NCBI GenBank assembly: GCA_037951105.1
Contig: JBAMJV010001300.1
Coordinates: forward strand, 186,001-250,000
Source: Echinarachnius parma
Lineage: Eukaryota; Echinodermata; Echinoidea; Clypeasteroida; Echinarachniidae
Length of the DNA stretch: 64,000 nucleotides
Reading direction: 5' to 3'
A model generated the notes under the pieces. It did no database searches, was not told the origin of the DNA, and was given only the letters and a program-made list of their open reading frames with translations. Made by a program: the position numbers and the translations under genes. Shown here in pieces: positions 3,110 through 60,468 of the stretch; position 1 is the first letter of the stretch, and every line of letters begins with the position of its first letter.

Positions 3110-3388
3110 GTTACCATTTTTCTGTATTACAAATTTCTCTTTCGGTGTTAAGATTTGTATGATTGAATCGTTCGGATCTAGTGTATCTAGTATCTAGTGG
3201 AGACTTTCAACTAAGTGTACAAAGTCAGTGCAATGAGTTAGCAAATATTACATAGCATTTTCGCTCATTACTAGGTCATGGCTTTCATTTTTATTCTATG
3301 GAAGCTTCATACAACAGTTAGTGGACATACTTATCAGATCCTAGACAAATATTTGCCCATGTAAACAAAAGTTATTACATCCCTTTAA
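3110..3388. repeat. MITE family A, diverged copy
   Basis: It shares the internal block around GTACAAAGT...AGTGCAATGAGTTAG and ATTTTCGCTCATTAC with the copies at 12560 and 24716, and ends in CCCTTTAA. Confidence 0.55.
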
Positions 3389-3432
3389 GTGGTGGTTTTC
3401 CCCCAAAGCTATGTCCAGTGTTCATGAAAGAC

Positions 3433-3521
3433 CACTACTTGTATTCGTATAGAACTCAGCCGTATAGAGCACCAGTCATGGTATCTGAAGGTCGTGGGTT
3501 CGAATCCCATCGCGGTCCAGT
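3433..3521 (+). repeat. tRNA-like sequence (SINE head or tRNA pseudogene)
   Basis: It contains GAACTCAGCCGTATAGAGCAC followed by GGTCGTGGGTTCGAATCCCA, an A-box-like and B-box arrangement resembling the tRNA-Ala-like repeats elsewhere in the window. The acceptor stem does not pair well. Confidence 0.4.
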
Positions 3522-4584
3522 TTTCTTTGTTCTCTATTTATGTATATTATGTTTTTTTGTTTCGTCTAGTCAGCTTTCGTTGTATTCATAATAAAATCAT
3601 GATATCGTTTGTTATAATGTTACCCTATTGAGGGCTGGGCCCGAGATATCCTGGCTTGGGCCTATATGATTTGTTTCAAATAATTTAGAACATAAATGAC
3701 CTTGCAACTTCTTTTGCTGTCGTTGATGAAAGTGATCCATTTTTTCATTAGGTGTTTTTTTCCCCGTAAGTGATATAGAAGACTTATATAATCATATACC
3801 AATATAATTAACAAATACTCTTCTGAATAATTATGTGATAGTTTAATTGAAAAGGAACACTGTTTATCTAGTGAGAAAAAAGGGTGTCTGAACATTTATG
3901 TAAGATTTTATCACCCAGTGTCCGATGGTTTTAACTACAATTATAAAACAAACCATCTGGAACACTTTTTAGATCAATCATATTAGTATCTACATACGTT
4001 TCAGAAGCTAAACGACAATATATAATACAATTCAGATTTATTAGTTAAAGGGGCATTATTGTTTTGAAGAATGCGTCTCTAAATTGTCTTTTGGCGATGA
4101 AGGTACTTTCAAAACTATGAAAGTTATAATTATTCAACATGTATTCATGGTCTGTATGAGTATATGTAAAGCCTTCAAGTTGATGATATTACATGCATAA
4201 TGTAATATAAATATAATGGTCGACAATAGTTCATGAATGTTTGGGATGTGTATACTATGGCTGCATATGAATATATCGATATAATAGTTTAATGTTGTAT
4301 ATTTATGTATTTCGTTTATGTCTTTCCTTTTGTTAAAATGTGCCGTCAATTAGCGTAGGGATATATTCCGACCATAATTATTGCATGATACGTGGTTATG
4401 TTGTTTTGTTCATTCGTTGCTTGCTAAATAATTTGTCAAATTGCGTTTGATTGAAAATATGAATCATGAAATATTACTATGATAATCGATAGTACAAACA
4501 AACCCTCACATTCCCCTACATTTATGGAATGGATCTCGTGGCAACCCACGAGAACGGCCAATTATCAAGTTTCACATGTTAGCC

Positions 4585-12559: not shown

Positions 12560-12923
12560 TTAAAGGGACTTAGTAACATTTTTCAAATCCTCAAAATAAA
12601 ATTTTAATTCTAGCGGTTCCATCATATCTTGTTGTATTCGTATTAACAATAAAATCATGGGACCGGTTTCGGTTTTTCAAATTTCCCTTTCGTTACAAAG
12701 ATATGTACGATTGAAGTATTCAGATAAGAAAAACTCCCCCGGAGTTTTTCTTACCGTGTACAAAGTGAGTGCAGTGAATATCACTTTGCATTTTCGCTCA
12801 TTACTTGGCCATGCAATGTCCATCACAATACCCTGTGGACAATTATGAGATAGCAACAATATACATTACATCAACCCTTCATCACTTTTTGCACATGTCA
12901 ACAAAGTTACTAGATCCCTTTAA
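12560..12923. repeat. MITE family A, full-length copy
   Basis: The ends TTAAAGGGACTTAGTAACAT and AAGTTACTAGATCCCTTTAA are imperfect inverted repeats starting at TTAA. The internal CATTTTCGCTCATTAC block is shared with the other copies. It is about 364 bp and non-coding. Confidence 0.8.
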
Positions 12924-13070: not shown

Positions 13071-13577
13071 TAAAGGTGTGGTACAGTTTTGGTAAGGCTG
13101 AGCTTTAGAAACCACAATCTGCACAATACCATGTTCAAAAGGTATACGCAATGACAAAGTAAAAAACCTGGTATCATCCAAAAAGAGCCATTAAAACACA
13201 AGAGGGCGCTCTCTAAAAAAACAACATTGGTTTTAACGATTTTTCATACAAAATTGTGATGTTTTGTTGAAATTATGTTTTAATAGAGAGATCATCAACA
13301 ACTATTTCAAAACCTATTTTGACATTTTAAAAAAATGTGTAAGCATTTTTTTAATAAAAACAAAATCATTGAATAAATCTGGGCCCCAGATTTATTCTGA
13401 TCGGATATATTTATTGATAATTATTTCAGCCGTTTCTGAACCGATTTTGATCAAATAAAGTTTATTCAGCCATTGAAATTGTATGCTCTTTCAAATTTGA
13501 CACCCAGTTTTTCATTATCTCACAAACAAATTATTTTGTGCAGCGCCCTCTATACTAAAACTGAACTACCCCTTTAA
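13071..13577. repeat. MITE family B, full-length copy
   Basis: The left end is TAAAGGTGTGGTACAGTTTT. The right end GCGCCCTCTA...AACTGAACTACCCCTTTAA is its inverted counterpart. It has the family's internal GAACCGATTTTGATCAAATA segment. It lies in the intron after receptor exon 9. Confidence 0.8.
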
Positions 13578-24677: not shown

Positions 24678-24715
24678 CTATAAAATAATACAAGTATGAA
24701 ATCATTGTTTATATA

Positions 24716-25101
24716 TGAAAGGGATCTAGTAACTTTGTTGACATGTGCAAAGCGTGACGAGTGGTTGATGCAATGACTATTGTTGTTATCTGATATGTCC
24801 AATGGGTGTTGTATGAACATTTTAAGTTAAATGGACGTTATATGGCCGAGTAATGAGCAAAAATGCAAAGTGATATTCACTAACTCATTGCATACACTTT
24901 GTACACGGTTTTTGCGGTCCAGTGGATAATTTAACATCTGAACACTTCAATCGTAAATATCTTTTGAACGAAAGGGAAATTTGAAAAGCCGAAACCGGTC
25001 CCATGCATTTATTGTTAATACGAATACAACAAAGTATGGGGGAACCGCTATAATTCCAGTTGGATTTTGAGGATGTGGACAATGTTACTAAGTCCCTTTA
25101 A
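24716..25101. repeat. MITE family A, full-length copy
   Basis: The ends TGAAAGGGATCTAGTAACTT and AATGTTACTAAGTCCCTTTAA are inverted, with the shared internal segment. It sits ~40 bp upstream of receptor exon 6. Confidence 0.8.
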
Positions 25102-25941: not shown

Positions 25942-27637
25942 AATGAATAACTTTATTACCAATAAGATAACAATATAACAATCATACATGAATATAAGAA
26001 ATGTTGACAGACAAACAAACTGGTAAAAGGACCCTACAGAAATAGCAACTTTTGCTAGTGGGGCGTAGGACCCTATGTACATGAATAGACGATATGCTTA
26101 CATTTGACTAAGGCAAGATTAAATAACATTCTACACTATTTTCTACACTAAGTATTTACAATAGTGGACACACTAATAACTACTAAACTATAAGATTATA
26201 TAAAACATGTAAAATCTGTTCAAGAGAATAAAAATTGCTTTATGTTTGGTAGCAATTCACAAAACACTACAAGACATATTGACTAAATAAATATTTTTTT
26301 ACATTTATCTTAATAAGGTTGAGACTATCAAGTCTCCGTATCTCTAAAGGCATACTATTCCAAATATCTGATCCCTGAAACGAGATTGAAGTTTTTCCAT
26401 GCTCTGTTCTCACCCTAGGCTTAACCAAAATATTTCCATCCTTTTGTCTTGTACTATAAGAGTTTTCAAAAAAGGTATAATATTCAAACACTGAGTGTGG
26501 TAAGTGTTCATGAGTTAACTTAAAAATAAAAACTGTTACCAACAACTTATACAGTTTATACACATCCAATATACCTAATGAATAAAACAATGGAGATGAT
26601 GAGGCCATTCTATTATTGAAAGTAATTGCTCTCAAAGCCATTTTTTGTAATATCAAAATCTTATTCGTTAACATCAAAGGTGCACTTCCCCAAACTTCAA
26701 GGCCGTAAGATAAATGTGACTGACCAAACGAATAATATAATAATACAAGGACTCGTTTCGGAACAAAGTGTCGTAGTCTATACAAAATTCCAACTTTCCT
26801 ACGAAGTACAGAGCATAAATTATTTATATGTTCATTCCAACTCAAATGCCGATCAATATATATTCCAACAAAAAGAGATACTTGTACTTCATTCAATAAC
26901 TCATTCTTAATTTTTACAACTCCAACCATACGACACTCTTTTCTCTTTGGCTTAACAATCATAACATTAGTTTTCTTTATATTAATAGTAATCTTATTCG
27001 CATCACACCACTGATCAATGTGTTTTAGGTTATCAGTTATTTCCAATAAATTAATATCTGTTTGATTAGGTAAAAAAGAATGAAAGATATTAGAGTCATC
27101 AGCAAAGAGTCGAAAATTAAAGTAGTCTGATGATCTAGGTAAATCATTAATATAAATCAGAAAAAGTGTAGGACCTAGAACAGATCCCTGAGGCACACCA
27201 CATTTAATTAAAGACATGGGAGAAGTTGAACCATTATGATGCACAAACTGACGACGGTCACTCAAATAATCATGAAACCAATTCAATTGAGTTCCTCGAA
27301 CACCATAATTTTCTAACTTGCCTAAGAGTATATTATGATTTATTGTATCAAATGCTTTAGCAAAATCAACAAAGACACCTACAGTAACTCGACCTTCATC
27401 TTGAAACTGAATTAACTGATTTATTAAACTAATCAACGATAACTTTGTACTATGCTTTTCCCTAAATCCATACTGATGTTTATACAATAAATCATATTTT
27501 CCCATAAATTTACCTATACGAATATTCACTAACTTCTCAAAAACTTTACTTAAAATAGGCAAGACCGATATAGGCCTATAATTACATGGGTCAATTCTTG
27601 TACCTTTCTTATACACCGGACTGACTCTGGCTATCTG
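25942..27637 (-). mobile_element. 5'-truncated non-LTR retrotransposon (CR1/Jockey-like LINE) with reverse transcriptase
   Basis: The minus-strand frame ending at 26267 is open for about 460 residues within the element. It carries RT motifs in order: YKKGTRIDPCNYRPISVLP, VFVDFAKAFDTINHNIL (motif A), GVPQGSVLGPTLFLIYINDL (motif B), FADD (catalytic motif C) and a WNSMP C-terminal motif. The endonuclease and ORF1 are absent, so it is dead by truncation though the RT frame is intact. ACATG at 25937-25941 and 27638-27642 flank it as a candidate target-site duplication. It ends ATAAAGTTATTCATT with no poly(A). In the tandem-repeat array it splits one unit cleanly. Confidence 0.85.
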
Positions 27638-27754
27638 ACATGCATGCATCAAGCGAACACATTTTAACCACAGATAAAAACAAGTACACAATCATGTTTA
27701 TTAAAAAGGAAACATGAAACAAAAGAAATAATCACAACCCCATGATATATACCT

Positions 27755-31466: not shown

Positions 31467-31833
31467 TGGGCTCTTATCTCAGTCGGCTAAGCGATTACCT
31501 GCCGGAAAGAACACACTCTTCCACAGTGTGAACACACTGTGTTTCACAGTGCGGACCACAATGTTAAATTCGAGCATTTTCACAGTGTGAAAGCCAACTC
31601 TCACTGTGAACACACTGTGAACACACTGTAAAATTGCTGAGATACACAGTGTGAGTGCACTTTTTAACACACTGTGAGTTGGCTTTCACACTGTGAAAAC
31701 GCTCAAATTTAACATTGTGGTCCACACTGTAAAACACAGTGTGTTCACACTGTGTTCACGCGGTGGACGAGTGTGTTCCTCAGTGGTCTAGCAATCCGAA
31801 GGTTTTGGGTTCGAATCCCGGAGAAACCCAATT
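31467..31833 (+). repeat. tRNA-like halves flanking a CACAGTGTG foldback
   Basis: 31470-31505 (CTTATCTCAGTCGGCTAAGC) and 31787-31833 (TCTAGCAATCCGAAGG...GGGTTCGAATCCCGG) resemble the 5' and 3' halves of the tRNA-Ala-like repeat at 44.88 kb. Between them (31509-31780) is an inverted repeat of CACAGTGTGAACACACTGTG-type sequence whose arms share GTGGTCCACACTGT / ACAGTGCGGACCAC. Confidence 0.6.
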
Positions 31834-32339
31834 TGTCATTGATATTATAGATGTCCGATCAGTTTCTCTCTTTCTTTGTAGTACATACAATATCATGACA
31901 ATATAAGAACTACTTATGCAGTCGCAGGAAATGTTCCTGGCAGAAAATCATCTCATTAAAAACAACAAACTTATTAAGTTTCTCCTAACATGTCTATAAT
32001 GCGGCGAACTAAACGACTTTACGAATGGGATGGTTGAATTGTCTTTTGTAATGTTCGTAAGTTTACAAGACGGATTTTTTTCCCACGACATCGTAATCGA
32101 TCGGCAACTCAAGACTATACTAAATAGGGATCTGCAAATGTGACATTTACAAACTATCCGTTTGGTGGAGGAGGGGCGTGAAACCCAGGCGTGGGCACAT
32201 TATTCGCCATGGTTTGGATTACTCGACGAATACAAAAAGGTCATGACCCACCCACTACGCGACTAAAGTCATGCATTTTTAAAAGAGGACAAACTCGTGC
32301 GAAAATGAGCCACTCGTTGTGTTGTATCTAGACTAAGTG

Positions 32340-33864: not shown

Positions 33865-34063
33865 TGTGGGACTCACATTGATTTCTTAATTAGATGCATA
33901 CGGATAATTTCAGCTATTTCTTAACCGATTTTAATCAAACAAAATGTATTCTGTCTTTTTAAATTGTGTGCCTTATCAAATGTAACACTTGGTTTTCCAT
34001 TACCTCACAAAAAATAATAATTCTTGAAGCGCCAACTTAACTACAATTTTACTATCCCTTTAA
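33865..34063. repeat. MITE family B, partial copy
   Basis: It has the internal TTAACCGATTTTAATCAAAC segment and the right end TTTTACTATCCCTTTAA. The left half is missing. Confidence 0.65.
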
Positions 34064-34218
34064 GGTTGATTTGCATTACTCCAGTTGCAGGATTTCCCGC
34101 TTGTCGAGTTACTTAATCTGTTTAATCTAAGGGAAAACAGCGGTCAGTTTTACATTTGACATTTATTAATGTAGATGCCGAACCTGGACGAAAAACCGCC
34201 AAGGTTATGCTTAAAGGG

Positions 34219-34790
34219 CGGCCCTATTTTGGCAAAAGGGTGTATCTGAGAAAATATGACTTTTTCAGGTTTTTCCATTTGGGGGGTTTTTGAGGTCAAA
34301 AGTTTCATTTAGCAAAGTTTCAGAAGTGACTGAGCTTTAGTTTTCGAGATAAAAGGTGGTATCTGGAGTAATTTTACATTTTTTCAGCAATTTGTGTTGG
34401 CAAAAGGATGTATCTATAGATACACCCTTTGAATACACCCATTAAATGGGTAAGTCTGATGATTATTTTGGCATAAGGGTGTATCTCTAGTTAGATCCTT
34501 TTACCAAAATAACCATATCGGACTTACCATCAGATTTATTATGGCATAAGGGTGTATCTCTAGTTAGATCCTTTTACCAAAATAACCATATCGGACTTAC
34601 CATCAGATTTATTTTGGCATAAGGGTGTATCTCTAGTTAGATCCTTTTACCAAAATAACCATATCGGACTTACCATCAGATTTATTTTGGCATAAGGGTG
34701 TATCTCTAGTTAGATCCTTTTACCAAAATAACCATATCGGACTTACCATCAGATTTATTATGGCAGAAGGGTGTATCTCAGAGATCTGCG
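34219..34790. repeat. Left subterminal repeats: 73-bp tandem array
   Basis: GCATAAGGGTGTATCTCTAG recurs at 34471, 34544, 34617 and 34690, then as GCAGAAGGGTGTATCTCAG at 34763, exactly 73 bp apart. Each unit also has AGATCCTTTTACCAAAATAA, forming a hairpin with the GGGTGTATCT block. Looser copies are at 34231 and 34405-34440. Confidence 0.9.
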
Positions 34791-35913
34791 CGCACGTACT
34801 GTATGCAGCATGCACAATGCATACAGCGGCTTAACTGCAGAATACCCCACCACTCGACTATGATATGGCCGGGGGCCGGGGGTCGTGGGTTTGCCAACGC
34901 CACGCGCTTTATACTTGACAGCCAAAGACTGTAGAATATTTCCGCACCAAACTTTGTTTTGAGAAGACCAATATATCGCGGCTTTAACAGAATGACACCC
35001 GACATGACAGGACTTGCCATGAAAGTTTTTTTTCCAGAAATGGACGGATTTGGACGGGCAGCGCAAGTCAACATTCGAGAAGGATTGAATTGTGCCTTGC
35101 CCTTGATGCGGTAGACATGAACGTTGAGTAGTGCCAGTGCAGTCTGCCAGCAATGCTTTGAGCGGTGGTCTGAACGACTGCACAGCCGCCACCAGCCGCG
35201 TGGCTCGCGACCATCGAGCGCCTCAATGCTTCGCAGCCGCAGCGATCAATCAATCAAGACCAGAGTCTCAAGTCAAGAGCATGACACAGGGCCAGGCAAA
35301 CTAAATCGAAAGCAGCTTGATCCAATGAAACAGCAAAAAAGGTAATTTTTTTGTTAATTGGAATAATGTAAAGTCAAAATAATAAGATTAAGAAATAGAA
35401 TCTTAAGATAATTATCTCGAGTAGGCAGGTTATCGTATCAATTCTTTCACATCCATCGTCATGCTCATGAGTCATGGTCGTGATCGTCATGCATTGACAT
35501 TGTCATTGATCTTCTTTTTACATTGCTAATGTTATGTCATTGCACATTCATTGACATTGCATTGGAATTTGACTGACGAGTCTGTCTCGGTCTGAAAGTG
35601 ACTGAAAAAAAGCACTGAAACCGAGTGATAATTATTTATAATATAATGATAATTACGAACATGACTATATGTCCATGCATGGCCTGGAATGGATCATGAT
35701 TGATGATGAAGTTGAAGCCAAAGGTACAATAAACACGTTAACAATGTGATTGTGGGTATTTTACGTGACCGTAAATAAGCTATGTACCGTCTTTTTCTTG
35801 GCAATTTTTACGTGAGTTTTGGTAGCACTAACACAGTGACATGCGCATACCCGTCCTGTACTTCTGAGAAGCGTGAATGAGGCACAAAAAAGCATTGACC
35901 TTTGATTGACATT

Positions 35914-36078
35914 GGCCCCGTTGCAGAAAGAGATAAAATCGATCGTAAGTTGCAGTTAAGCGTAAGTCATATCACGTGTTCTAGATGCGCAAATCTGATT
36001 GGTTGAAACGCGTAAATTTTCTGACTTACGATCAATCGTAACTTACGATCGATTTGATCTCGTTCTGCAACGGGGCCA
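35914..36078. repeat. MITE family E copy
   Basis: The ends GGCCCCGTTGCAGAAAGAGA and TCTCGTTCTGCAACGGGGCC are inverted, with inner GATCGTAAGT/ACTTACGATC. Confidence 0.85.
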
Positions 36079-36749
36079 TTGTCTGATACGTTGCCAAGGT
36101 CGGGGTGTAACAAATCGGGGTTTTTTGCGTCTGAAGTGCTAGCCTACAGTCAAGCTTCTCGCCTATTTAATTTGTTAATTTTATCTCCCCGTGTACCCCA
36201 ACTGGGCCAGCAACCTACAAATCATGCAATGTATATGTCGGAGGAAAGATTAGTAGTATACATCGCTTGATTTGTTGGTTTGCCAGCCCAGTTGGGACGC
36301 GCGGGGAGATATAATAAACAAATACAAATACAAATAGGTGAGAAGCTCAACTAGACGTGCTACTGATTTAGCTTACTCGCCTCCCTTAGTTTGTGAATTG
36401 ACACAAAGTTCTTTTGTCTTATAAATGGGGATATAAATTCAATTGGTAAATGTTTGCTTTATTCCTTTAGAATCATTTAGGGTTAAGGCTGACGGCCATC
36501 CTAAATTTGGTGGCTAAGCAAAGTATATTTATAATTAGTCAAGTATGAGCATGCGCTACCCTACCGAAACTTACATGTACGTGCAAATATCAAAAGTACA
36601 TAGCTTTACGGTCACATAAAAATAGCAACAGTGAAAACTAAATTTAGCCATTTACACAAAGATGGTGCTAAACATGCACTCTCATACTTATTGTTATTTG
36701 CATCACCTCAAAGTTACTTTAAACTCAAGTAAATTGGTTTGTTTCACAC

Positions 36750-37137
36750 TTAAAGGGATCTAGTAACTTTGTTGACATGTTCAAAAAGTGATGAATGGTT
36801 GATCATGCAATGTATATTTTGTTATCTCATATGTCCACAGGGTATTGTGTGAAAATTTCAAGTCAAATGGACATTGCATGGCCAAGTAATGAGCGAAAAT
36901 GCAAAGTGATATTCAATAACTCACTGCACTCACTTTGTACACAGAAGAAAAACTCACCCGGAGTTTTTCTGATCTGAATACTTTGATCGTACATATCTTT
37001 GTAACGAAAGGGAAATTTGAAAAACCGAAACCTGTCCCATGATTTTATTGTTAATACGAATACAACAAGGTATGAGGGAACTTATAGAATGAACAATTTA
37101 TTTTGAGGATTTGGACAATGTTACCAAGTCCCTTTAA
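36750..37137. repeat. MITE family A, full-length copy
   Basis: The ends TTAAAGGGATCTAGTAACTT and AATGTTACCAAGTCCCTTTAA are inverted. It is nested inside the large element. Confidence 0.85.
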
Positions 37138-37979
37138 CATTTTCCTCATGTTCGAGTCAAAATTAACCCCTTGACTACACATGATTTTCTATTTTGATTT
37201 GTGTTAAACAAAACTAATCAATGCAATATTTTCAAAATGTTACAAACTTCAACCATCGACAACAATCTACATGTAGATAGACAAAAGAAAGAAATGCTAT
37301 TTCATAGGCCATTATCAGTTCGGATCAGGCAATTGTTGTTGTTCCTTCAGGCTTTACAAAACAGAACTGGAATTTTTTCTTTTCTTATTTCAACGTTGCG
37401 TTGCTGTGTCTGGTTGCACACATTTATTTTTGTCTTTTTTAAATCATTCTTTTTACAGCATATACATCCCAAGACGTCGCAACTGTTTAATGAGGCTGTA
37501 TACACCTACAACACCACGTTCTGACTGCAACAGAAATCAGAAATCACCTTGCCACCCAACCAAGACGCTCAGAAGGTACACATCAAAAGAGCCAACTACC
37601 AAGCAGGTGTGTTTTGAACTATTTTAGTAAGCTTAAATGGATTAACTAGGGCTCGACACTCACACTGGCCCGCTGGCCCGGGGCCAATGAAATATCATCT
37701 CGGGCCAGCTAAAAAGTGCAAATGGCATATTTTGGTGGCCCGATCGAGCAAGCATTGACACTAGTACAAATCTTGTTTTCTTCCATATCATGCTCCGATC
37801 TATTATCACATTTTTTATCAGAAAAGAGTGATATTTTGAAAAGTAAAAAAGTTTACTTGTGAAATAGAATTATGGGGCCAGTAATTGTTTTCTTTCAGGA
37901 CACCAGAAAAAGAGAAGAAATTCCTAATATCAATGGCACAATCAGGTCACTGACAAAACATGGAGTGTGAAGCCCTGGA

Positions 37980-38341
37980 CTTACTCTTAGTAACATTGTC
38001 CAAATCCTCAAAACTTACTTGGAACTCAGGTGGTTCTCTCATACCTTGTCATAGTCATAACATTAAAAGCACAGGACAGGTTTCTGTTTTTCAAATTTCC
38101 ATTTCGTTAAGAAGATATTTATGATTGAAGTGTTCAGATGTTTAATGGGCTATGGGATAGTTAAAGCTGTGTACAAAGTAATTGCAAAGAGGTTAGTGAA
38201 TATCACTTTGCTTCTCTGCTCATTTCTCAGCCAACAAACAACCCATTCATGTGAAGTGTTCACACAATGAAATCACACAAGTACACATTTAAATTAATGA
38301 CTCATCACTTGTAGCACTTGTCAAGAAAGTTAATATGTAGA
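37980..38341. repeat. MITE family A, decayed copy
   Basis: It has GTAACATTGTCCAAATCCTC at the left and the shared internal block, but the terminal CCCTTTAA is lost. Confidence 0.55.
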
Positions 38342-38939
38342 GTTCAACACTAATAATAAAGAACATCTATATAATTATAATGTCTTTGTGTATAATACAC
38401 TGTATCATGTTTACAAACAAAATCAATTTGCAATTATCTACAATGTTAATTTTAGTTAAGCGAGAGAGTATTGTAAAACAAATGATTGTACATGTGTAAT
38501 ACATATTTACTGAACTGTGTTTCATTTTAAAGCAGAGCTCATTATATATTTTCTTTTCCTCTTTTTCTGTATTTCCAGGTGTCTACTAAAGGAGTTTGAT
38601 TGCAGAGCCAGACATACAAGCCTTATATTCACATAGATGGAAGAGGAACAGCTAGCCATCAACTGAATGAATATTACTCTTGCCCTAGATACTACTCTAG
38701 GAAATACAAGAGGCATCAGTCTGAAAATAGAAAGGAAGGGTCAATTTTTACTGGACACAACCTCCATGAACTTCAGAAGCATCCAGCCTGTTGATTTTAC
38801 CTAGCTGACCCCTCCTTCTTTCAGAAATGTGTCATGTCAGGTGTTAGTGATGAACAGCGTCTACTGAGAAGAGAGTAATTGCCTAAGTTGCTTTTGAGAT
38901 GGTGAAAATAAATCTGACAGTCAGGGATAGTAGCATCAT

Positions 38940-39385
38940 TACCGAGCTGCCAAACTAATGCTGGGACTTTGAAGGAACATCTGGATGGGAACCGATTCGG
39001 AAAGGTTCAGACAAATTTTATCTGGTCTTCAGACCGGAACAGAACTTGGCCTGGTAGATCACAGAAAAATTCACGCAATCGTGAAAACATCAGCAAAAAT
39101 AGTGTTTTAGGCTGCTTGACCCAATTGAGTGAAACTTGATATCCTTTTAAAGCTAAGATATTTAATTATTAATAGTAAATATATTATCCATTGCGGATAT
39201 AGTAAATAAGTAGTAATAGTCAAATAGATTTACGTAATATGTAAATCATCATAATGCATTAGTGATTTTAAATTATTTTGTTGAATTGGATAACATTTGC
39301 TCCAAAGAATTTAAAATGTAAAACAAATTGGTGTTTCAATATTTCTTTTAAGAGTAAGCTCTCTTTTTTGCTCTTATGTCCCACG
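38940..39385. other. No recognised feature
   Basis: AT-rich; nothing supportable. Confidence 0.4.
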
Positions 39386-39388
39386 CCC

Positions 39389-39870
39389 TAAAGGGATAGT
39401 TGGTTTGGTAAAGGTGATGCTACACAAAGATAATACAACAAAAATGAGTGTCAAATTCAAAAGAGCATACAATTTAATGAGATAATAAATTTGGTTTGAT
39501 CAAAATAGGTTCAGAAATGGCTGAAATATCAATAAACATAACCATTTGTAATAATTGTTGGGCCCCACAATTATTCATTAGTTTTGAACCAGCACTCAAA
39601 ATTCTCATTTAAATGCTTCCTCTTTTCAGAAATTTACAGAAGAGGTTTTTAAATAGCTGTTGATTATCTCTCTATTTAATCACTATTTCAATAAAACATC
39701 ACATGCACAATATTTAATTTTAGTGTGTTTAGAGAGCACCCTCTTGAGTTGTAACGGCTCTTCTTTAATGATAACAGGCTTTTTACTTAGTCGTTTGTAA
39801 TTGTTGTATTCCTTTCGAGCATGGTGTAGTTATAACTATGAGTTCATAATCGTAATGTAATGGTGCATAG
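39389..39870. repeat. MITE family B, decayed copy
   Basis: It starts TAAAGGGATAGTTGGTTTGG and has the internal GGCTGAAATATCAATAAA, GGGCCCCA and ATGATAACAGGCTTTTTAC blocks. The right terminus is lost. Confidence 0.65.
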
Positions 39871-40108
39871 GAATTGTAGACACAAAAGTGAGTGATTTTG
39901 GGGCAGGCGTTCATTTACAGAAGGTCGATCACATGACTTGTTGCTGTGATACATGCAAAAGGTTGATGGGTGGGGGGTGAATTACTGAATTCACAGGTAG
40001 ACAAACCTGCACTGCCTCCAGTTAATCTCTTTTTTCATGTGTTCGCTGACTAGCGACCAAGTAAACATTACATGCCACTAGTAGCATAAACTTTCATTCA
40101 TTTATGTA

Positions 40109-40274
40109 CAGTGAAACCTCTTTATAACAAGTGTTGTTATAAAACAAGGTACCTGATATAGTCGGGTAACTTCACGAGTCCAGGGTCTATAGGTACTTTG
40201 TTGTTTTTAAGCCATGTAATACAACAAGGTAAATTCAATGGTCCCAACATTCTCATTATAAATAGGTTTCACTG
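40109..40274. repeat. pogo/Tigger-like MITE (CAGTGAAACCTCTTTATAAC)
   Basis: CAGTGAAACCTCTTTATAAC and GTTTCACTG ends are inverted. TATAACGAGGT-type ends are known from pogo-group mariner elements. TA borders fit. A second copy is at 41499-41662. Confidence 0.7.
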
Positions 40275-41290
40275 CTCTTAACTCCACACATGTAAGTTTT
40301 CTTACAATCATTCATACAACCATCAAGTCTTTCTTTTATTCTAAAGATGCTGTGTAGATATGGATTAGTTATAATTAGCTCTTTATTGAATCCTGAATGT
40401 CAGATTCTAAAACATGTATGCATACATGTAGTTAGCTAACTTCCATAATTCTATTGTATGTTTATAATTGTTAACAATTATATATCCAGGGTTTGGTTTT
40501 ATATGCAATATTTTCTTCACAGCTGACACATTGCAAAGTAAATGTGCACTTTGCTACTGGTACATTTGGCATAGGCACAACATGTTTTGATAATCACTAA
40601 CCACATTGTAAATGAATGTAGACAAAGCTTTTAAAAGTTTATTATTTGTTATTTTATTGCTGTTGAAATGTAGGCAGATGTTATCGTGAGTCCTGGGTAG
40701 TAAATACTCCCGAAATCAACAACACTACCTACAAGGTCCTCTCAGGGTATGACCATAAAACAGTATTGTATCATTAGTTGCCAGTTTGGTAAAAAACTTA
40801 CATTTATTTTGTAAATTATACACAGCTTGCTCGTGGTAGTGCATTTGCAAGTACCTTTTATATGTTTTTACAGAACCTCTATAATGCTTAAATTGCCATC
40901 AAATCAAAGCAATGACACATAAAAACAAAACAAAAACATGAGTATAAAAAACAATGCATCAAGATATAACTTACTAGTGTGTAAATAAATGTACGTAGTG
41001 TTTTGTGCCAAAAGTAAATTACTTGTATTATTGCCTCGTTACATCACATCAAAGTGACTGAAAAACAAATTAAGTATTACAAAAACGCATCTCATGTTTT
41101 ACTTGCAAGTTTGTACATGTTTATACTGTAATCAACTCTTTCTTATGCCTATGTGAATCAATTGTGTTGTGTGTAGAGGTCTCTGCTGCAGAAAGATTCA
41201 CAATCAATTTAAAGTGGCAATTCATTTTTAGTCAGAAAATGTGCATTTGAACAGATCAATTTTGCACATCTAGTCACATGATATGACTTG
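40275..41290. other. No recognised feature
   Basis: AT-rich interior of the large element; no credible ORF or repeat seen. Confidence 0.4.
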
Positions 41291-41291
41291 C

Positions 41292-41438
41292 AATAGACCG
41301 CTTCGGCAATGTATGCCAATAATATGTGTATGACGTCAGACTCCCCGTCGGCAAGCTTAACAAAAGTACTTTGCTTGACGACGGGGAGTCTGACGTCATG
41401 CGCATATTATTTGCATACATTACCGAAGCGGCCTATTA
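41292..41438. repeat. Foldback element, ~60-bp arms
   Basis: TAGACCGCTTCGGCAATGTA pairs with TACATTACCGAAGCGGCCTA, and inner GACGTCAGACTCCCCGTCG pairs with CGACGGGGAGTCTGACGTC. Confidence 0.85.
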
Positions 41439-41498
41439 GAAGCAACTGTACAATTAATTGTGTCTTTGAATATTTATTTGTCCTATTCTTGTATTACT

Positions 41499-41662
41499 CT
41501 AGTGGAGCCTATTTATAACGAGGTACTTGATATAGTGAGGTAATTTCACAGGTTCTGGTTCCATGTATTCTATTTTTAAGCCCTGATACAACACAATATC
41601 TGATATCACTTATCACGTAAATGAAATGGACCAAACATTCTCGTTATAACAAGGTTTCACTG
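41499..41662. repeat. pogo/Tigger-like MITE, second copy
   Basis: It resembles 40109-40274 throughout (TTTATAACGAGGTACTTGAT, right end AACAAGGTTTCACTG). The left terminus has decayed. Confidence 0.65.
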
Positions 41663-41758
41663 TACATTTTTGTATACAACTCAGTTCATGCATGCATTAT
41701 CTTAAGTCTGCTGCATGAACGCATATTGATTACTGAGTTTTAAAGTTACAGATATAAC

Positions 41759-42320
41759 TTAAAGGGATAGTTGAGTTTTGGTAGAGAGGGCGCTAGACTA
41801 CTTATTTTTTTGTGAGGTAATGAAAAACTGAGTGTAAAATTTGAAAGAGCATAATATTTAAATAATAAAATCATCTTTGTTTGATCAAAATCGGTTCAGA
41901 GACGGCTGAAATATCCATAAATATAACAATTTGTAATAAAGCTGGGGCCCCAGGTTTATAAGAGAATTTTAAACCAGCCGTTAAAAATTCAAAGAAATGC
42001 TTCCTCTTTTAAAAAAGTTACAAAATAGGTATTTAAATAGTTGTTGGTTATTTCTCTATCTAATCACTATTTCAACAAAGCATCACATGCAAAATATTTT
42101 ATTCAAAATGGTTGAAACCGATGAGTGTTTGGAGAGCGCCCTCTTACGTTTTAACGGCTCTTTTTGAATGATAACATGATCTTTACTACGTCATTTGTAA
42201 TTTTGTGTTCCTTTCTAGTTATAACTATTAGTTTGTAATGCAATGATGCAGGTTTTGGTTACTAAAATTCAGTTTCACCAAAAATGTACTCTCCTTACCA
42301 GAACTAAACTATCCCTTTAA
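41759..42320. repeat. MITE family B, full-length copy
   Basis: The ends TTAAAGGGATAGTTGAGTTT and GAACTAAACTATCCCTTTAA are inverted. This copy is the reference for the empty-site test of the large element. Confidence 0.85.
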
Positions 42321-42765
42321 TAATACAATATATATCATATGCTCCCCAGGGAGTGGACAATGTGCACTTTGTGTGCTGGATTGAGTGCAGTATGTATCCG
42401 ATGACCGGAACGTGCGCTATATAAGTAGCCACCATTATTATTATTATTATATTTATTATGTCACATGTCAGCATATTGCAATGCAACCAATGCCATGCAG
42501 TTGCCTAGAAGTTCACATATTATTATACCACTTCATAAATGCTTATAAATAAATTATATTGCACTGTTATTGCACAGTACCTAGAAGTATCAGAAAATGT
42601 TTGCTGGTTCTCACCAAACATACTGTTTTAGTCATTGTTTTATACTGTTCCTAAGAGATATGATAGTAAAGTGGCAAGCATTTCTTGTAATGACATCTGT
42701 TGAAAATTTGTTAGAAAACAACAAATAAATTGTCTTTCTATTTATATCATGCTTTAACATGGTCT

Positions 42766-43125
42766 TTATTTTAAATTCATGATGTGCATTTTGGGCAACA
42801 ATCTCTCTTCAATCGGCTGATCATCATCTTTATCTAGAATGTTTACACATACAAAATGACACCATTTGTGGCAGCAATCACAACAAATAGAATTGTCTTC
42901 AAATATACATCCATCGGGAAGTTGCAAGCACTCATTGTCACAAATGTTACACATGTATACAGATCGACTTTTCTGACGTGCCGACATCTTTCCATTTTTT
43001 CCCCTCTTTTTAGTGTCAGTGTCTTTTTGTTGTGTCTGATTCGATGTTGATCGAAGTGATGGCTTGTTCTGTTTGTTCTGTTGATGTCTGAGGACCAGTG
43101 TTTGTTGGTACTGCCTGTGCATCAA
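42766..43125 (-). pseudogene. PHD-like zinc-binding fragment inside the large element
   Basis: The open frame ends with CNICDNECLQLPDGC, then NSICCDCCHKWCHFVC, a Cys/His pattern like PHD/RING-type fingers with the hallmark W-C-H before a Cys. A further CPKC pair appears just after in the +1 frame, so a one-base shift probably broke the finger. Upstream, in another frame, QTSTEQT matches the 44.2-kb fragment, implying related or duplicated exons. PHD-like fingers occur in host chromatin proteins and in some transposon proteins; I cannot tell which. Confidence 0.45.
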
Positions 43126-43126
43126 T

Positions 43127-44170
43127 AGTTTACAATGGAAGTTTAGTAAAAACCAGAGTCGGGTTAATGTGGTGTGTGATAGATTGTATCAGACTTGCGT
43201 GTGTGTTGTTGTTGTTGTTGATGATGTCGACGACGACGGTGATTGATAAACACACACGGCAGACACCAGCACCCAATACTAGCTTACTAATTAAATATAT
43301 AGAAATACAAGCTTGACACGGGAATAAATGAATGTCCACGCAGTTGATATAAATTGGAATGACGTCATTATTAAGAAGATAAACAAATGTCCAAAAGGAT
43401 GTATTGCACTGCGATTAGTTAATTTGTATAGGCCTAGAAAGAGTAAGTGACAGTCCGCGGATGAAATGTATAGCGAGAATAGCGAGAGTTCGGAGAGATG
43501 ATGAAGAAGTAGAACGCGAGCGTGCGTGAAGAGATGACGATGTTGAATCCTGTTCGATCGATGGACTAGCGCGCATGATGTGTCAGAGATCGCAATCGAT
43601 GAACTCCGGCACGTGCCGTGGAGATCGAGAAGAAAAGCCTGGAAGCCTAACATGGTGCTAATAAAACATGTCCGTAAAGATGAAGACAAAATGATGAACA
43701 TCAAAGAAAAGATGGATGGAAGACCAAATGGTTCGGTGGATGAAGAGGTGGATGAAGATGAAGTTGAATGGCTGAAGTTTAACGCCCCATGATGTCAGTA
43801 TGCGGACTCTCCCTTGAAGTTGGTGAAATCAAGGAGTGGTTGACAACCATGTTAGTTGAATGGTAACTAACATGGCGATGATGAGGAGATGTTACTCCGA
43901 TGGAAGTTGGTGGAAGAGTGAAGATCTAGCTAAAATACCACGTGGCAGAGGAGAAACAAAGAGGTGATTATCTGACCAAAGATAAATTGACATGGATCAG
44001 ACAGGTCAGCCACTGGAGTCGAGCTGGATCAACATTAGTCTGGCCAGGCTATAAGTGAGCCATAATAAAATAGAATGTTATCCATGAGATGTCGGCTGCA
44101 GAAATTGTTTTTCAGCCTTGATCGTAGTTAGTCTGTTGTTCAGGCTATAAATGTAGAGTGAAGTGAGTCA
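43127..44170. other. Interior of large element, no gene recognised
   Basis: A 70-residue acidic plus-strand frame at 43580-43792 is not recognised and lacks support. The stretch otherwise has GATGAAG-rich sequence. Confidence 0.35.
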
Positions 44171-44365
44171 CTACAGAAGTGATGGCTTGGTTGACCTTCC
44201 TGAATGCTTTGATGAGATGACTTGAGAAGAGTCAATTGTCTGTTCTGTTGATGTCTGAAGATCAGCGGATGTTGATGGTGCCTGCGCACTTGCTGCTTCT
44301 GTTGTCCATTGTGAAATGAGCTCTCTCGTAAATTCTGCATCATCTTCTGATTCATCGGCCATAGT
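44171..44365 (-). CDS. Short acidic N-terminal exon/ORF of unknown function inside the large element
   Basis: Starting at an ATG it reads MADESEDDAEFTRELISQWT and continues for 64 residues to TAG. STSADLQTSTEQT resembles the sequence just upstream of the PHD-like fragment at 43.1 kb, suggesting two copies of one protein's N-terminus. An upstream acceptor-like TTTAACAG is present. It could be the first exon of a cargo or transposon gene. Function unknown. Confidence 0.35.
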   Translation of the reverse strand, partial: TMADESEDDAEFTRELISQWTTEAASAQAPSTSADLQTSTEQTIDSSQVISSKHSGRSTKPSLL

Positions 44366-44645
44366 GTTCGATGATGCTGAAACTGTTAAATAAATGTTTA
44401 AAAATAAAAGGAAGAAAGACAATCAAATTTAAGTTTGTGACCACATGACAAAGTCTAAGACTAAGACTAGAGGGCCTTGTTACTTCTTCAGACCATGTAG
44501 ATTATAGATGCTCAAGTTTAGCTTATCAGAGTATTATATCAAGATCCAGATTGACAAATCTATAATTTTTGTTGTTATTATCCAGCTAATTGGACCATGT
44601 AACTACTCTTTCTTTGAGATATGTACGAATAATATTATTAAAAAT

Positions 44646-44739
44646 GAGCAAAGAAAATGGGATTCCAACGGGATTCGAACCCGAGACCTCCGGATTGCTA
44701 GACCGGTGCTCTTACCGACTGAGCTATAGAAAACCCTAT
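44646..44739 (-). repeat. tRNA-Ala-like sequence (minus copy of inverted pair)
   Basis: On the minus strand it has TAGCTCAGTCGGTAAGAGCA (A box), loop CTAGCAA (anticodon AGC) and GGTTCGAATCCCG (B box). The acceptor stem pairs poorly. It is inverted relative to 44883-44970. Both share flanks such as GGGATT..AACGGGATTCGAAC and AAAATGAGCAAAGAAAATGG. Confidence 0.55.
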
Positions 44740-44882
44740 GACGGCATTCATCAGTTCGGTGATCCCTCGCAGATATCCCCAAGTTGATTTCTATCCTTCG
44801 GGTTTATGTCAGGTTTATAATAGCTTCTGACCTCACGAGCAATGAAAATTAAGGGGATTCTATGGGACGAATGCCGTCATAG

Positions 44883-44985
44883 GGACGGTTTTCTATAGCT
44901 CAGTCAGTAAGTCTAAGAGCACCGGTCTAGCAATCCGGAGGTCTCGGGTTCGAATCCCGTTGTAATCCCATTTTCTTTGCTCATT
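44883..44985 (+). repeat. tRNA-Ala-like sequence (plus copy of inverted pair)
   Basis: It shares with the minus copy TTTTCTATAGCTCAGTCAGT and CACCGGTCTAGCAATCCGG. A 4-base insertion in the D-arm region (GTAAGTCTAAGAGC) makes a functional tRNA unlikely. Confidence 0.55.
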
Positions 44986-45017
44986 TTTAATCACAATATA
45001 TTTCTGGTCAGTTTAAT

Positions 45018-45565
45018 TACCGTGGGTGCTAGAGAACCCGGCCAGTCACACACAGCACAGATTAGCACAGTGCGTCATTGACTTTGTACACGCACCGTGC
45101 GCGGTGGCCGGGTTCTCCTGCACTGCGATAAATTGAACCTTCGTGCATGAAATCGCGCCGTGCGGAAACCCGCTTTGCCGTTGAGCGATAATTTTTTATC
45201 AGCGAAGGCACCGCGATATTACGGTCCAATTGGTGTAAGTTTCTACCGAAATGAACTACTGAGCGTAGATTTACAAAAGCGAGAATAAAGATTATAAAAA
45301 TTGTAATCTCAAATTATCGTGAATAAAATAAAAAAATAACAAATTTCGGAGTTTAAAGACTGACTTTCAAGCGATTTTCTGGATAACCAGGAGGACTACA
45401 GAACAGCAATATACACGTATTTTATGAGCAATGTGCAGATAAATCGTTTGATATAAGTTTCGAGTCACATGTTCAGTGCATTCTCGGCAAATCTAATTTC
45501 AAAGGTAGCCCTGTCCATTTTTTGGCCGGGTTCTCCCCCGTCCGGGTTCTCTAGCCACTACGGTA
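45018..45565. repeat. MITE with TACCGT..GTGGCTAGAGAACC termini
   Basis: TACCGTGGGTGCTAGAGAAC and GTTCTCTAGCCACTACGGTA are inverted. GGCCGGGTTCTC recurs internally. No ORF. Confidence 0.8.
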
Positions 45566-45569
45566 TGTT

Positions 45570-46135
45570 TGAATTAAATAATATTAATTATCAACGTCTT
45601 CATCATTCATGGCCTCTTTTAAAGTTTTAGTTTTATATTTGATTAGAATCAATAACTGTCGGTCATTACAGTATTCCATTGTCAATTATGTTTATATTCA
45701 TACACCTGAGACATTTATTTGGTTAATTTCGACCTAAAACAAGAGTGTTTACTTATAGCAGGTGAACAAAGTTGAGTCACCAATACGGGCACACACACAT
45801 TTGCACAGATGGGCCTGGGCACGGCAGTCGAGATCCCACTCTTATTAGCCGACTTAACGTCGTATTATCAGGTTTATTTGTTTAAGGATCGTTATAAAAA
45901 TAAATTATCATAAACTTTGGTTTCTTACCTTACAAATAATACTTGAATACAAGAGAATCTCTGCCAAATATCGGATCCTGTGCACAAGAGTAATGTTGAT
46001 TCGAAGAACAGAATCCCGTACGTTCACCGTTTGTTAAATGTTGTCAGTGGATAAATTATCTTAATTGCGATCGCAACAATCTGCACATATTATTATGCAG
46101 CGCGCGCAGTCATAAACATGTTTGCCAAATAAATC
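45570..46135. other. No recognised feature
   Basis: AT-rich; nothing supportable. Confidence 0.4.
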
Positions 46136-46139
46136 AACA

Positions 46140-46601
46140 AATTAATTCACTCATTTATTTTGGTAAAAGGGTGTATCTCATCGATACACCCTTCTACCAA
46201 CAAAAAGTGACGGAATAATTCACTCATTTATTTTGGTAAAAGGGTGTATCTGAAGATACACCCTTTTGGCCAAATAAGTGAAGGAATAATCATGGTGTAT
46301 CTGCAGATACATACCTTTTACCAAAAAGAGACGTATTACGGCGTGTGTCAATTTTTATGGCAGAAGGGTGTATCTGGATAAAAATGAACCTTACTCTAAA
46401 TATAAGAAGTTTACAAAAATGAAAACTATATTAAAATAATATTTGAACGATACATTACATTTTAAAACAAACTCCAACATCATACAACCATTCCTAAGGC
46501 TTCTATAGCAAAACAAAATGCTCAAACTTCAAAGTCATTTTTCTCGGCTTTATGTACGCCGGTGTATATTCGAGATACACCCTTTTGCCATATTAGGGCC
46601 G
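46140..46601. repeat. Right subterminal hairpins of the large element
   Basis: GGTAAAAGGGTGTATCTCAT pairs with GATACACCCTTCTACC. A second hairpin pairs GGGTGTATCTG and AGATACACCC. Further GTGTATC motifs lie at ~46291 and 46362, and the terminal inverted repeat at 46571-46601. Confidence 0.85.
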
Positions 46602-47093
46602 AGGGATAGTTGAGTTTTGGTAAAGTGCAGTTTTGGTCAAACTGAATTTTAGTAACCAAAACCTTCACCATTACATTACAAAATAATAGTTATAACTCCA
46701 CCATGCTGGAAAGGAATACTAATTACAAATGACTAAGTAAAAAGCCTGTTATTATTTTTTTTAAAGTCTTTATAATTCAAGAGGGTGCTCTCTAAACACT
46801 AATCGGTTTCAACCATTTTAAATAAAATATTGTGCATGCGATATTTTGTTGAAATATTGATAAGATAGAGAGATAATCAACAATTATTTGAAAATCTCTT
46901 TTGTAAGTTCTTGAAAAGAGGAAGCATTTAAAACAAAATTTAACGTCATTTCTGAACCGATTTTGATCAAATAAAGTTTATTCTGTCATCAAAATTCTAT
47001 GCTCTTTTGAATTTGACACACAGATTTTCATTATCTCACCAAAAAAATATTTTGTGTAGCGCCCTCTATACCAAAACTCAACTATCCCTTTAA
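46602..47093. repeat. MITE family B copy split by the large element
   Basis: It begins AGGGATAGTTGAGTTTTGG, lacking only the first bases TTAA(A), which remain at 34211-34218 beyond the large element. The right end is CTCAACTATCCCTTTAA. Confidence 0.85.
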
Positions 47094-49671: not shown

Positions 49672-50214
49672 TTAAAGGGGTAGTTTAGTTTTGGTAGAGA
49701 GGGCGCTGCACATCACAATTTGTTTGTGAGATAATGAAAAACTGAGTGTCGAATTTGAGAGAACATGCAATTTTAATGGCAGAATAAACTTAATTTGGTC
49801 AAAATCGGTCCAGAAACGGCTGAAATATCAATAAATATATTTGAACTCATAATTATTTGGGGCCCAAATAATTAGATGATTTTTTCAAAAAATTCAAAAA
49901 ATGCTTACACTTTTTCGAAAATTTTCAAAAGCGTTTTTTGAATAGTTGTTGATGATCTATCTACTTAATCATTATTTTAATAGAACATCACATGCATTAT
50001 TTTGTATGAAAAATGGTTGAAACCAATGCCTTTTTTGAAAGCGCCCTCTTGTGTTTTAATGGCTCTTTTTTAATGATAACAGGCTTTTTACTTAGTCGTT
50101 TGTAATTGTGTATACCTTTCGAGCATGGTGGAGTAATAACTATTAGTTTATAATGTTACTGTCCAGGTTTGGTTACTAAAGTTCAGCCTTACCAAAACTG
50201 TACTACCCCTTTAA
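49672..50214. repeat. MITE family B, full-length copy
   Basis: The ends TTAAAGGGGTAGTTTAGTTT and CTGTACTACCCCTTTAA are inverted. Confidence 0.85.
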
Positions 50215-50948: not shown

Positions 50949-51494
50949 TTAAAGGGGTAGTTTAGTTTTGGTAGAGAGGGCGCTGTACATCACAATTTAT
51001 TTGTGAGGTAATGACAAACTGAGTGTTTAATTTGAGAGAACATGCAATTTTAATGACAGAATAAACTTTATTTGGTCAAAATCGACCCAGAAACGGTTGA
51101 AATATCAATAAATATATCTGATCTTATAATTATTTGGGGCCCAAATAATTAGACGATTTTTCAAGAAATTAAAAAAATGCTTGCACTTTTTCAAAAAATT
51201 TCAAAAGTGTTTTTTAAATAGTTGTTGATGATCTCTCTATTTAATCATTCATTATTTCAATAAAACATCACATGCATAATTTTGTATGAAAAATGGTTGA
51301 AACCAATGCCTTTTTCGAAAGCGCCCTCTTGTGTTTTAATGGCTCTTTTTGAATGATAACGGGCTTTTTACTTAGTCGTTTGTAATTTTGTATACCTTTC
51401 GAGCATGGTGGAGTTATAACTATTAGTTTATAATGTTACTGTCCAGGTTTGGTTACTTAAGTTCAGCCTTACCAAAATTGTACTACCCCTTTAA
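50949..51494. repeat. MITE family B, full-length copy
   Basis: Nearly identical to 49672-50214; both lie between receptor exons 3 and 2. Confidence 0.85.
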
Positions 51495-53059: not shown

Positions 53060-53640
53060 TACATTTGCTCTATCATAATGAGCTAACATGAGAAAATGCA
53101 TCATAATAAATGCAATGAACAACTGAATGTACAGTATTTATAGAAGAAATTGTAAATAGAGCAAGGAAATAATTCGTAAACAAAGTACAAACACATAAAT
53201 AGATATTAACGTATGTAAAATGTATACACAACGTACAATTCTTAAACTATTCTTCGATGACGGCATTGGTTTTCTAAAAATTGCCTTGTTTCTTATTGTA
53301 CATATTTTGAGTTTTTGTATCAACTATGTTACTTTGTGATATATTTCGTTTTGTTGGGTACATTATTTGTTATTATATTCCACATACTAAGAATCTTGCT
53401 CTACGATTGGTCAAAAGTTAATCACGTGATTAAATATAGTTTCGCCCATCGGTACACTCTGTAGATATCTTGGGTGAAAGTGCGTTGCACTCACTAGATA
53501 AAAAGTACTATCTACACTCCGCGGTTGCATTGAATTGAATACCAATAAGTGGCGCGATAACTCTATGCGCGCGAATTACAAATTTAATTGTATTCGTTGT
53601 GCATACGGTAGACGTAGTACACTGCATACGCTATGCACTG
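53060..53640. other. No recognised feature
   Basis: AT-rich; nothing supportable. Confidence 0.4.
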
Positions 53641-53647
53641 TACATCA

Positions 53648-53747
53648 GAGGCGTCGATCAGCTGTTCGGAAAACACAATGCATTGGCCGGGGCGAGCATT
53701 GTTTGTGAACAATTGCATTGTGTTTTCCGAACAGATCGACGCCCCTG
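53648..53747. repeat. Inverted repeat, ~35-bp arms
   Basis: GTTCGGAAAACACAATGCA and TGCATTGTGTTTTCCGAAC pair, with GAGGCGTCGATC / GATCGACGCCCC outside. Confidence 0.8.
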
Positions 53748-53800
53748 TTGTAGTATCGTACATATACTGTTTGCATGCTCGTTCTGTGTACTCTACTAAA

Positions 53801-54022
53801 ATGACGGCCACAAACAGAAGGTTTGAGCTTTTGGATGAGGATGAAATGGACACGTTTTTACTGGAGAGTGAAAGTAAAAATACAAAGCGACAACTTAAGT
53901 TCAGCCTGAAAGTGTTCCAAGATTATTGCGATGCTGGAAGCATACTTTTTAACGAATTGTCTGACGTGGACTTGAAAGCGCTAGACCAAGTGTTGGGGAG
54001 ACTCTATTTTCGCGTTTGTTGA
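53801..54022 (+). pseudogene. Fragment resembling the N-terminus of Crypton-type tyrosine recombinases (KIAA1958/ZMYM-like)
   Basis: 73 residues from ATG: a FELLDEDEMDTFLLE segment, then NTKRQLKFSLKVFQDYC, then ELSDVDLKALDQVLGRLYF and stop after RVC. The NTKR...V..F..(W/Y)...ELDxxLxRFY pattern resembles the core-binding start of Crypton-derived recombinases. The catalytic domain is absent, so this is a first exon or a truncated relic. Assignment is from pattern recall only. Confidence 0.45.
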
Positions 54023-56814: not shown

Positions 56815-57020
56815 TATATTATGTAATATGTACAAAATAAGTGCAATGAGTTAGTGAATATCACTTTGCATTTTTGCTCATTACTCGGCCATATAAGGTC
56901 CATTTAACTTGAAATGTTCACACAACACCCAGTGGAAATATCAGATAACAACAATATACATTGTATCAACCACTCATCACTTTTTGCACATGGCAACAAA
57001 GTTACTAGATCACTTTAATC
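56815..57020. repeat. MITE family A, partial copy
   Basis: GCAATGAGTTAGTGAATATC to AAAGTTACTAGATCACTTTAA. The left part is missing. Confidence 0.75.
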
Positions 57021-57474
57021 ATAAAACGAAAATTCGTTCTTGTATCATAAAATGCCGAGTAAGACTTTAAAATGCTGACACGAAATTGACTAATTAGAAG
57101 AAGAAAAAAAGATTGATGACCTTCGTGGGTTATTACTCTTTAACGGGATATAGCTATATAAAGTTTCCGAATGAGTTGACGTTTTTTAGACAAAAGTGTC
57201 TACAGAATATGAAAATATGAAAATAATTACGACATAAAACCACGCTATTAACAGCTAAAGTATCACATGATCGGTGCTTATCATCGTCATTTGCTTAATG
57301 GTTTGTAGTTAATGACAAGGGTGTTTACACGATATCTCTGACAAAATGATAAGCGATACACGTTGGCAAACATTGCCTGTGGCGTAGCCATCAGCTAGTG
57401 TATAAACACCGTGCACAAGACGTTCCGAAGATGACACCACGCGTCAGTTTAAAACGAATCCGAAGTAAAATTTA

Positions 57475-60096: not shown

Positions 60097-60468
60097 TTAA
60101 AGAGGTAGAACAGTGTTGGTAAGGCTGAGCTTTAGTAACCAAAACCTGCACAATAATAACATAACAAACTAACAGTTATAACTCCACCATGCTCGAAAGG
60201 TAGAGCAAACTACAAACGACTAAGTAAAAGGCCTGTTATCATTCAAGAAGAGCCATTCATTTTTTATTTTTTTAATAAAAAAAAAATCACCGAATAAATC
60301 TGGGCCCCAGATTTATACAGATCGGATATATTTATTTCAGCCGTTTCTGAACCGATTTTGATCAAATAAAGTGTATTCTTTCATTACAATTGTATGCTCC
60401 TTCAAATTTTACAATCAGTTTTTCATTATATCACCACAAAATATACCAAAACTGAACTACCCTTTTAA
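60097..60468. repeat. MITE family B copy, internally deleted
   Basis: It starts TTAAAGAGGTAGAACAGTGT and ends ACTGAACTACCCTTTTAA. It lacks the central ~130 bp present in other copies. Confidence 0.75.

Follow-up and report, generated by a model that had tools for sequence, protein, structure and literature searches.

What interrupted a small repeat in the genome of the echinoid Echinarachnius parma, and what could have carried so long a passenger there? The window analyzed here is the whole 64,000-nucleotide stretch from contig JBAMJV010001300.1 (assembly GCA_037951105.1, positions 186,001 to 250,000 of the forward strand), and all coordinates below count from its first letter. An initial annotation, made from the letters alone, had marked a 12.4-kb transposon-like element at 34219..46601, flanked by the halves of a miniature inverted-repeat transposable element (MITE) of a family called MITE-B. 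That observation is confirmed, and the interpretation attached to it is, as a whole, partly supported. Its ends recur as pairs, nearly identical copies are scattered through the genome, and 4-bp duplications, an empty site and short end-only derivatives are also seen. It is likely that the element and its relatives form a young, unusually long (~12 kb), non-autonomous family of DNA transposons with terminal inverted repeats (TIRs), moved in trans.

Ends, target and empty site

The window's copy, a member of what we call subfamily A, is 12,383 bp long (34219..46601, no strand assigned), with limits set by its ends, its target site duplication (TSD) and comparison between copies. The left TIR (34219..34247, plus strand) is the 29-bp sequence CGGCCCTATTTTGGCAAAAGGGTGTATCT, delimited by end comparison, and its inverted partner lies at 46573..46601 on the minus strand with 27/29 identities. 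The near-identical inverted ends of the initial annotation therefore stand, and their measure changes from 28 bp with two mismatches to 29 bp with 27/29. When the window was base-shuffled, the best match to the left TIR reached 17-19/29 (20 shuffles, one strand), compared with the 27/29 observed. The symmetry breaks off precisely at AGGG on either side. These 4-bp sequences, already noted as bordering the element, were read from the flanks at 34215..34218 and 46602..46605 and form the left and right TSD; the left one doubles as bases 1-4 of the interrupted MITE-B. The termini themselves run CGG..CCG, of the CGGCC or CGGCCC type.

Subterminal repeats are present at both ends, as annotated. On the left, GGGTGTATC cores occupy 34390..34779, including a 73-bp tandem array at 34463-34779; on the right, palindromic GGGTGTATC cores occupy 46127..46375 in a repeat that resembles the left array. 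The two end blocks make up 1.6% of the window and hold 15/16 of its total AGGGTGTATC core matches (at most one mismatch).

Joining the flanks without the element and one AGGG yields a complete MITE-B copy bordered by TTAA. Because of this, MITE-B must have preceded the element, which inserted 4 bp within it. The terminus of a MITE-B copy was all that had been claimed to reappear on joining; the insertion is indeed demonstrated, and the claim was understated in that a whole copy results. Its left TTAA, the TSD of the interrupted MITE-B, lies at 34211..34214 and was recognized from the joined flanks and an uninterrupted counterpart on contig C5718. The same two sources place the remainder of the copy at 46606..47089 (minus strand) and the right TTAA at 47090..47093. 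Copies of MITE-B elsewhere in the window, at 41759, 49672 and 50949, are likewise bordered by TTAA at either end.

The joined flanks (282 nt) were also compared with the assembly (1.2 Gb, 14,790 contigs). Contig C5718 matches them over their full length at 98%, and the window's own contig matches solely as two halves; among the 40 candidates scored, of 2121 at first look, all other matches are confined to the MITE part. Since C5718 matches throughout, an empty allele or a close paralogue is present in the assembly. Over an aligned stretch of 1.5 kb, the left flank has 409/417 and the right flank 988/1007 identities, and at the empty site the 4-bp target stands once, as AGCG compared with AGGG in the window. 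The simplest reading of the 1.5 kb compared is that C5718 represents the other haplotype of a heterozygous individual; the alternative is a close paralogue.

The MITE-B family is ~0.5 kb long, TTAA-flanked and Kolobok-like, with AG..CT ends. Seven full or partial copies lie in the window (41759-42316, 49672-50204, 50949-51484, 13081-13577, 39389-39867, 60107-60443 and 33868-34073) in addition to the interrupted one, and a query of flank plus terminus drew 2121 first-look candidates genome-wide.

Copies, subfamilies and target duplications

If the unit is a transposon, its two ends should recur together. For the first 82 bases of the element, scoring gave at least 40 matches among 101 candidates, six of them identical over the full length; for the last 100 bases it gave at least 40 among 119, 15 of them identical (window included in both counts). 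Allowing one mismatch at most, the genome holds the TIR pattern at 118 places and a reversed control pattern nowhere. Pairing used 100 listed places of these 118 together with the matches to the first 82 and last 100 bases. It produced 32 convergent pairs and left 54 ends single. The 24 long pairs span 10,348-43,821 bp, and every one holds an interior marker, the stretch at 43547-43789; the eight short pairs span 599-1,213 bp, and none holds it. Nested insertions may have lengthened the largest of these pairs, which might otherwise consist of ends belonging to two elements. Three short copies that we read (599, 770 and 770 bp) align solely to the two ends of the window's copy, at roughly 69-82%.

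The genome contains dozens of recent copies. Whether the two ends might never be found as a pair was put to the genome-wide search, which returned 23 further long pairs. Paired ends, the TSD, the interrupted MITE-B and the recurrence of the end pair all uphold the description of a single transposon-like unit.

One long pair (G000:C1273:159200-171331) may carry two left ends, as either end matches the left-end query (96% and 98%). At about position 1600 of L017 (G000:C2830), the right end of one copy directly abuts sequence resembling the left-part interior of a subfamily B copy, and for this reason family members seem to nest in one another.

Ten long copies, including that of the window, were compared by ungapped identity across BLAST pieces of at least 300 bases, and they fall into two subfamilies. 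Subfamily A comprises the window's copy and those on C5513, C666, C10976 and C423, with 98.8-99.94% identity over 10 pairs; subfamily B comprises those on C3480, C9887, C3526, C3186 and C14002, with 98.3-99.65%, also over 10 pairs. Between the window's copy and the five B copies, identity is 96.5-97.0% over 7.4-8.0 kb that lie mostly toward the right; on the left, the copies are either 75-85% alike or differ.

Nested MITE-B copies add a relative chronology. The younger one (41759..42316, plus strand, limits including both TTAA) is missing from the B copies, and an exact one-TTAA empty site is seen in 5/5 of those read. It is therefore most likely, judging from these alignments, that subfamily A gained this MITE-B after the A/B split and then carried it along. 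An older, degenerate MITE-B lies at 39389..39867 (plus strand), in a stretch that also aligns in the B copies.

Target duplications were read at both ends of 13 copies (10 long, 3 short). A perfect 4-bp TSD flanks 8/13, with the sequences AGGG, AGCG, ATCA, AATG, CGCT, CTGG, CTCT and TACT, and no common target sequence was seen among the TSDs of the 13 copies. These duplications bear on the reading that an assembly artefact or segmental duplication, in place of transposition, produced the copies. That reading draws on C10976 and C423, which have a common right flank and different left flanks, and one of which lacks 2 bp at its left end; given the common flank, duplicated haplotypes or rearrangements do exist. 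As an account of the family it is contradicted by the exact empty site and the perfect TSDs, and the other copies read have different flanks, so we regard it as extremely improbable.

Some copies hold additional sequence. Two inserts in the C5513 copy (1.2 and 4.9 kb) contain no open reading frame (ORF) longer than 126 aa and show 3-bp and 5-bp overlaps at their borders. The C3186 copy has an ORF of 1,186 aa and the C14002 copy ORFs of 687 and 467 aa, which by eye appear to be retroelement insertions.

Interior contents and the source of the transposase

Does the element encode the enzyme that moves it? An autonomous element might carry its transposase in small exons, or in a form too diverged for Pfam, and two interior stretches could be pieces of it: a PHD-like fragment and the 81-aa open stretch that serves as our interior marker (43547..43789, plus strand). 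This reading retains some weight in that all long pairs made, 24/24, hold that same marker. The marker has 89 genome matches, down to 42% identity. It stays open in most near-identical copies and also in a diverged relative on C6412 (72%), and between the window's copy and the five B copies its only indels are of 3 bp and 6 bp, in 3/5. Against a coding role, its nine substitutions in this comparison are spread evenly over codon positions (2, 4 and 3), and, although some diverged matches are open, many of the more diverged relatives have stops.

The PHD-like fragment occupies 42769..42996 on the minus strand, at the end of an ORF spanning 42769-43188. It corresponds to half a finger, the first; its Pfam match (E 0.082, 140-aa query) falls short of the threshold, and the best solved relative is a Pygopus PHD (E 0.016). 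It has 54 genome matches, and several of the more diverged ones carry stops. Between the window's copy and the B copies there are four variable sites in 228 bases, all in one phase that is not the third codon position, and C9887 has a 2-bp indel. The proposal of a PHD-like cargo gene is not supported by these observations: half a finger, a weak score, a 2-bp indel and no sign of coding constraint in the few A/B differences led us to reject the stretch as working cargo. We read both the PHD piece and the 81-aa stretch as probable relics of older coding sequence.

Elsewhere in the interior, an inverted pair of tRNA-Ala-like sequences (44629..44999, no strand assigned) has arms at 44629-44714 and 44914-44999, which are 95% complementary and 199 nt apart, and is possibly a tRNA-derived repeat. 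Similar pieces occur in the window at 2980-3021, 3441-3550 and 31785-31841. Overall, the interior looks like non-coding ballast composed of nested MITEs, tRNA-like repeats and gene relics.

The longest stop-to-stop ORF in the element is 167 aa. Pfam recognized no transposase in the six frames of the whole element (stops as X), in 30 ORFs submitted singly out of the 70 unmasked ones with at least 46 aa, or in 10/12 pieces of the reading frames in the left part of a subfamily B copy. Across these queries nothing reached the curated cut-off; the weak matches that did appear (best E 0.015) were to unrelated families and were set aside. Codon usage in the element is not coding-like, with a maximum score of 6.7, where a reverse transcriptase ORF in the window reaches 56.1; that ORF was itself one of the three retroelement ORFs on which the score was trained. 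The remark that no known transposase could be seen in the element is upheld by the six frames and the 30/70 ORFs. Taken with the evenly spread substitutions and the 2-bp indel in the PHD stretch, these results make an autonomous element unlikely.

Relatives of the element were read as well. The 9 kb read around the C6412 relative, in which the marker has no stop, contained no TIR core, and inspection by eye showed no transposase there; foreign stretches adjoining the right end on C7255 and C2654 showed no transposase likeness by eye. KDZ transposase (PF18758), with 32 genome matches, was considered as a source and rejected: 0/32 matches lie on contigs with the 100 listed TIR sites (at most one mismatch) or the added end matches. 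KDZ matches of equal score occur on seven contigs (G000:C987, C1292, C1601, C2190, C3376, C6016 and C7305), which suggests a KDZ family that has several exons and was active recently.

Because no known transposase was recognized, a non-autonomous family moved in trans fits the data. For such a family we infer DDE-type cut-and-paste chemistry, a transposase supplied in trans, and palindromes that act as its binding sites. A transposase supplied from elsewhere would recognize the 29-bp TIR and the subterminal GGGTGTATC palindromes and, once bound, would bring the two ends together. It would then excise or copy the element, which would insert via a 4-bp staggered cut with little sequence preference, and the interior ballast would travel along with the ends.

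Several observations weigh against this account. The TSD agrees in only 3/4 bases in 2/13 copies (C14002 and L069) and is absent from 3/13 (C10976, C423 and C9887). The sensitivity of Pfam is limited; the PHD match with E 0.082 was not listed when the whole minus frames served as query. No autonomous partner, that is, a long pair without the marker, was found among the pairs made from the 100/118 sites and the end matches, a search that covered paired ends and left the 54 single ends outside it, not read through. Finally, the marker in 24/24 long pairs also fits an element with its own unrecognized transposase. A related proposal, that the 12-kb copies contain, in a form beyond the reach of current models, the transposase of an undescribed eukaryotic superfamily of DNA transposons, defined by CGGCCC termini, an unspecific 4-bp TSD and long palindromic subterminal arrays, seems to us very unlikely.

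Known superfamilies and surroundings of the element

Which transposase could act on such ends? We compared the element with described superfamilies. Ginger1 and Ginger2 have TGTNR termini, Ginger1 targets CCGG or CCGT, and some Ginger1 transposases contain a PHD finger (PMC2836005). The element resembles them in its 4-bp TSD and, given that finger, in its PHD-like piece. Both were nevertheless rejected, as the element has CGGCC termini and mixed targets in place of TGTNR and CCGG-type sites. Chapaev (CMC) is similar in its TSD of 3-4 bp and was rejected on its termini, which are described as CAC..GTG (PMC4079192) compared with CGG..CCG here. Kolobok, with a TTAA duplication and RR..YY termini (PMC9587614), does not match the varied 4-bp TSDs and C..G termini of the 12-kb element. 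The target family MITE-B does fit Kolobok in its TTAA duplications and AG..CT termini, a label taken from the ends alone.

Two superfamilies come closer. AcademX, of the Academ superfamily, has a TSD of 3 or 4 bp (PMC10045372), a range that includes the element, the comparison being one of TSD length alone. Sola2 shares the 4-bp TSD and short TIRs (PMC3627910). However, the Sola2 TSDs are AT-rich in the families described there, a rule that comes from this one paper, and those of the element mostly are not (AGGG, AGCG, CGCT, CTGG). Neither an Academ protein nor a Sola2 transposase was recognized in the element by the Pfam scans. The element could belong to a described superfamily with a 3-4-bp TSD, AcademX or Sola being the best candidates, with the autonomous copy missing from the assembly or bearing diverged ends. 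We hold this assignment to be possible but doubtful. It is compatible with a non-autonomous family moved in trans and competes with it on the name only.

The closest likeness is to non-autonomous TIR DNA transposons and MITEs in general, which the element resembles in its TIRs, fixed-length TSD, lack of a recognized transposase and short end-only derivatives. It differs from typical members in its length of ~12 kb in typical copies, its recent high-identity copies and the absence of a superfamily assignment. As far as checked, with Repbase and Dfam outside the comparison, it is a new family of a known kind, the TIR DNA transposon. PMC4455052, PMC4298943 and PMC6431247 provided general background.

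The kind of element is ordinary; its size and the missing superfamily assignment give it specialist interest. The locus offers a clear, apparently heterozygous case of a coding-poor 12-kb element that has recently spread to dozens of places. Two questions become testable: which transposase moves so long a passenger, and whether arrays of palindromic end sites help it compete with short MITEs that share its ends. For population work, clean markers are provided by the empty allele and by the nested MITEs with their exact empty sites.

The surroundings of the element contain other features. The host site had been described as a receptor intron, a description that found no backing, since no receptor gene appeared in the few window pieces scanned. 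A 134-aa ORF at 53618-54019, for which Pfam returned nothing, resembles the start of a Crypton-derived type of protein. The reverse transcriptase ORF mentioned above (474 aa; RVT_1, E 2.2e-32) lies at 26270-27691 on the minus strand. A second repeat family, 66-86% alike and present in both orientations, occurs at 36738-37137, within the element, and at 12560-12923, 24705-25101, 56829-57030 and 3119-3391.

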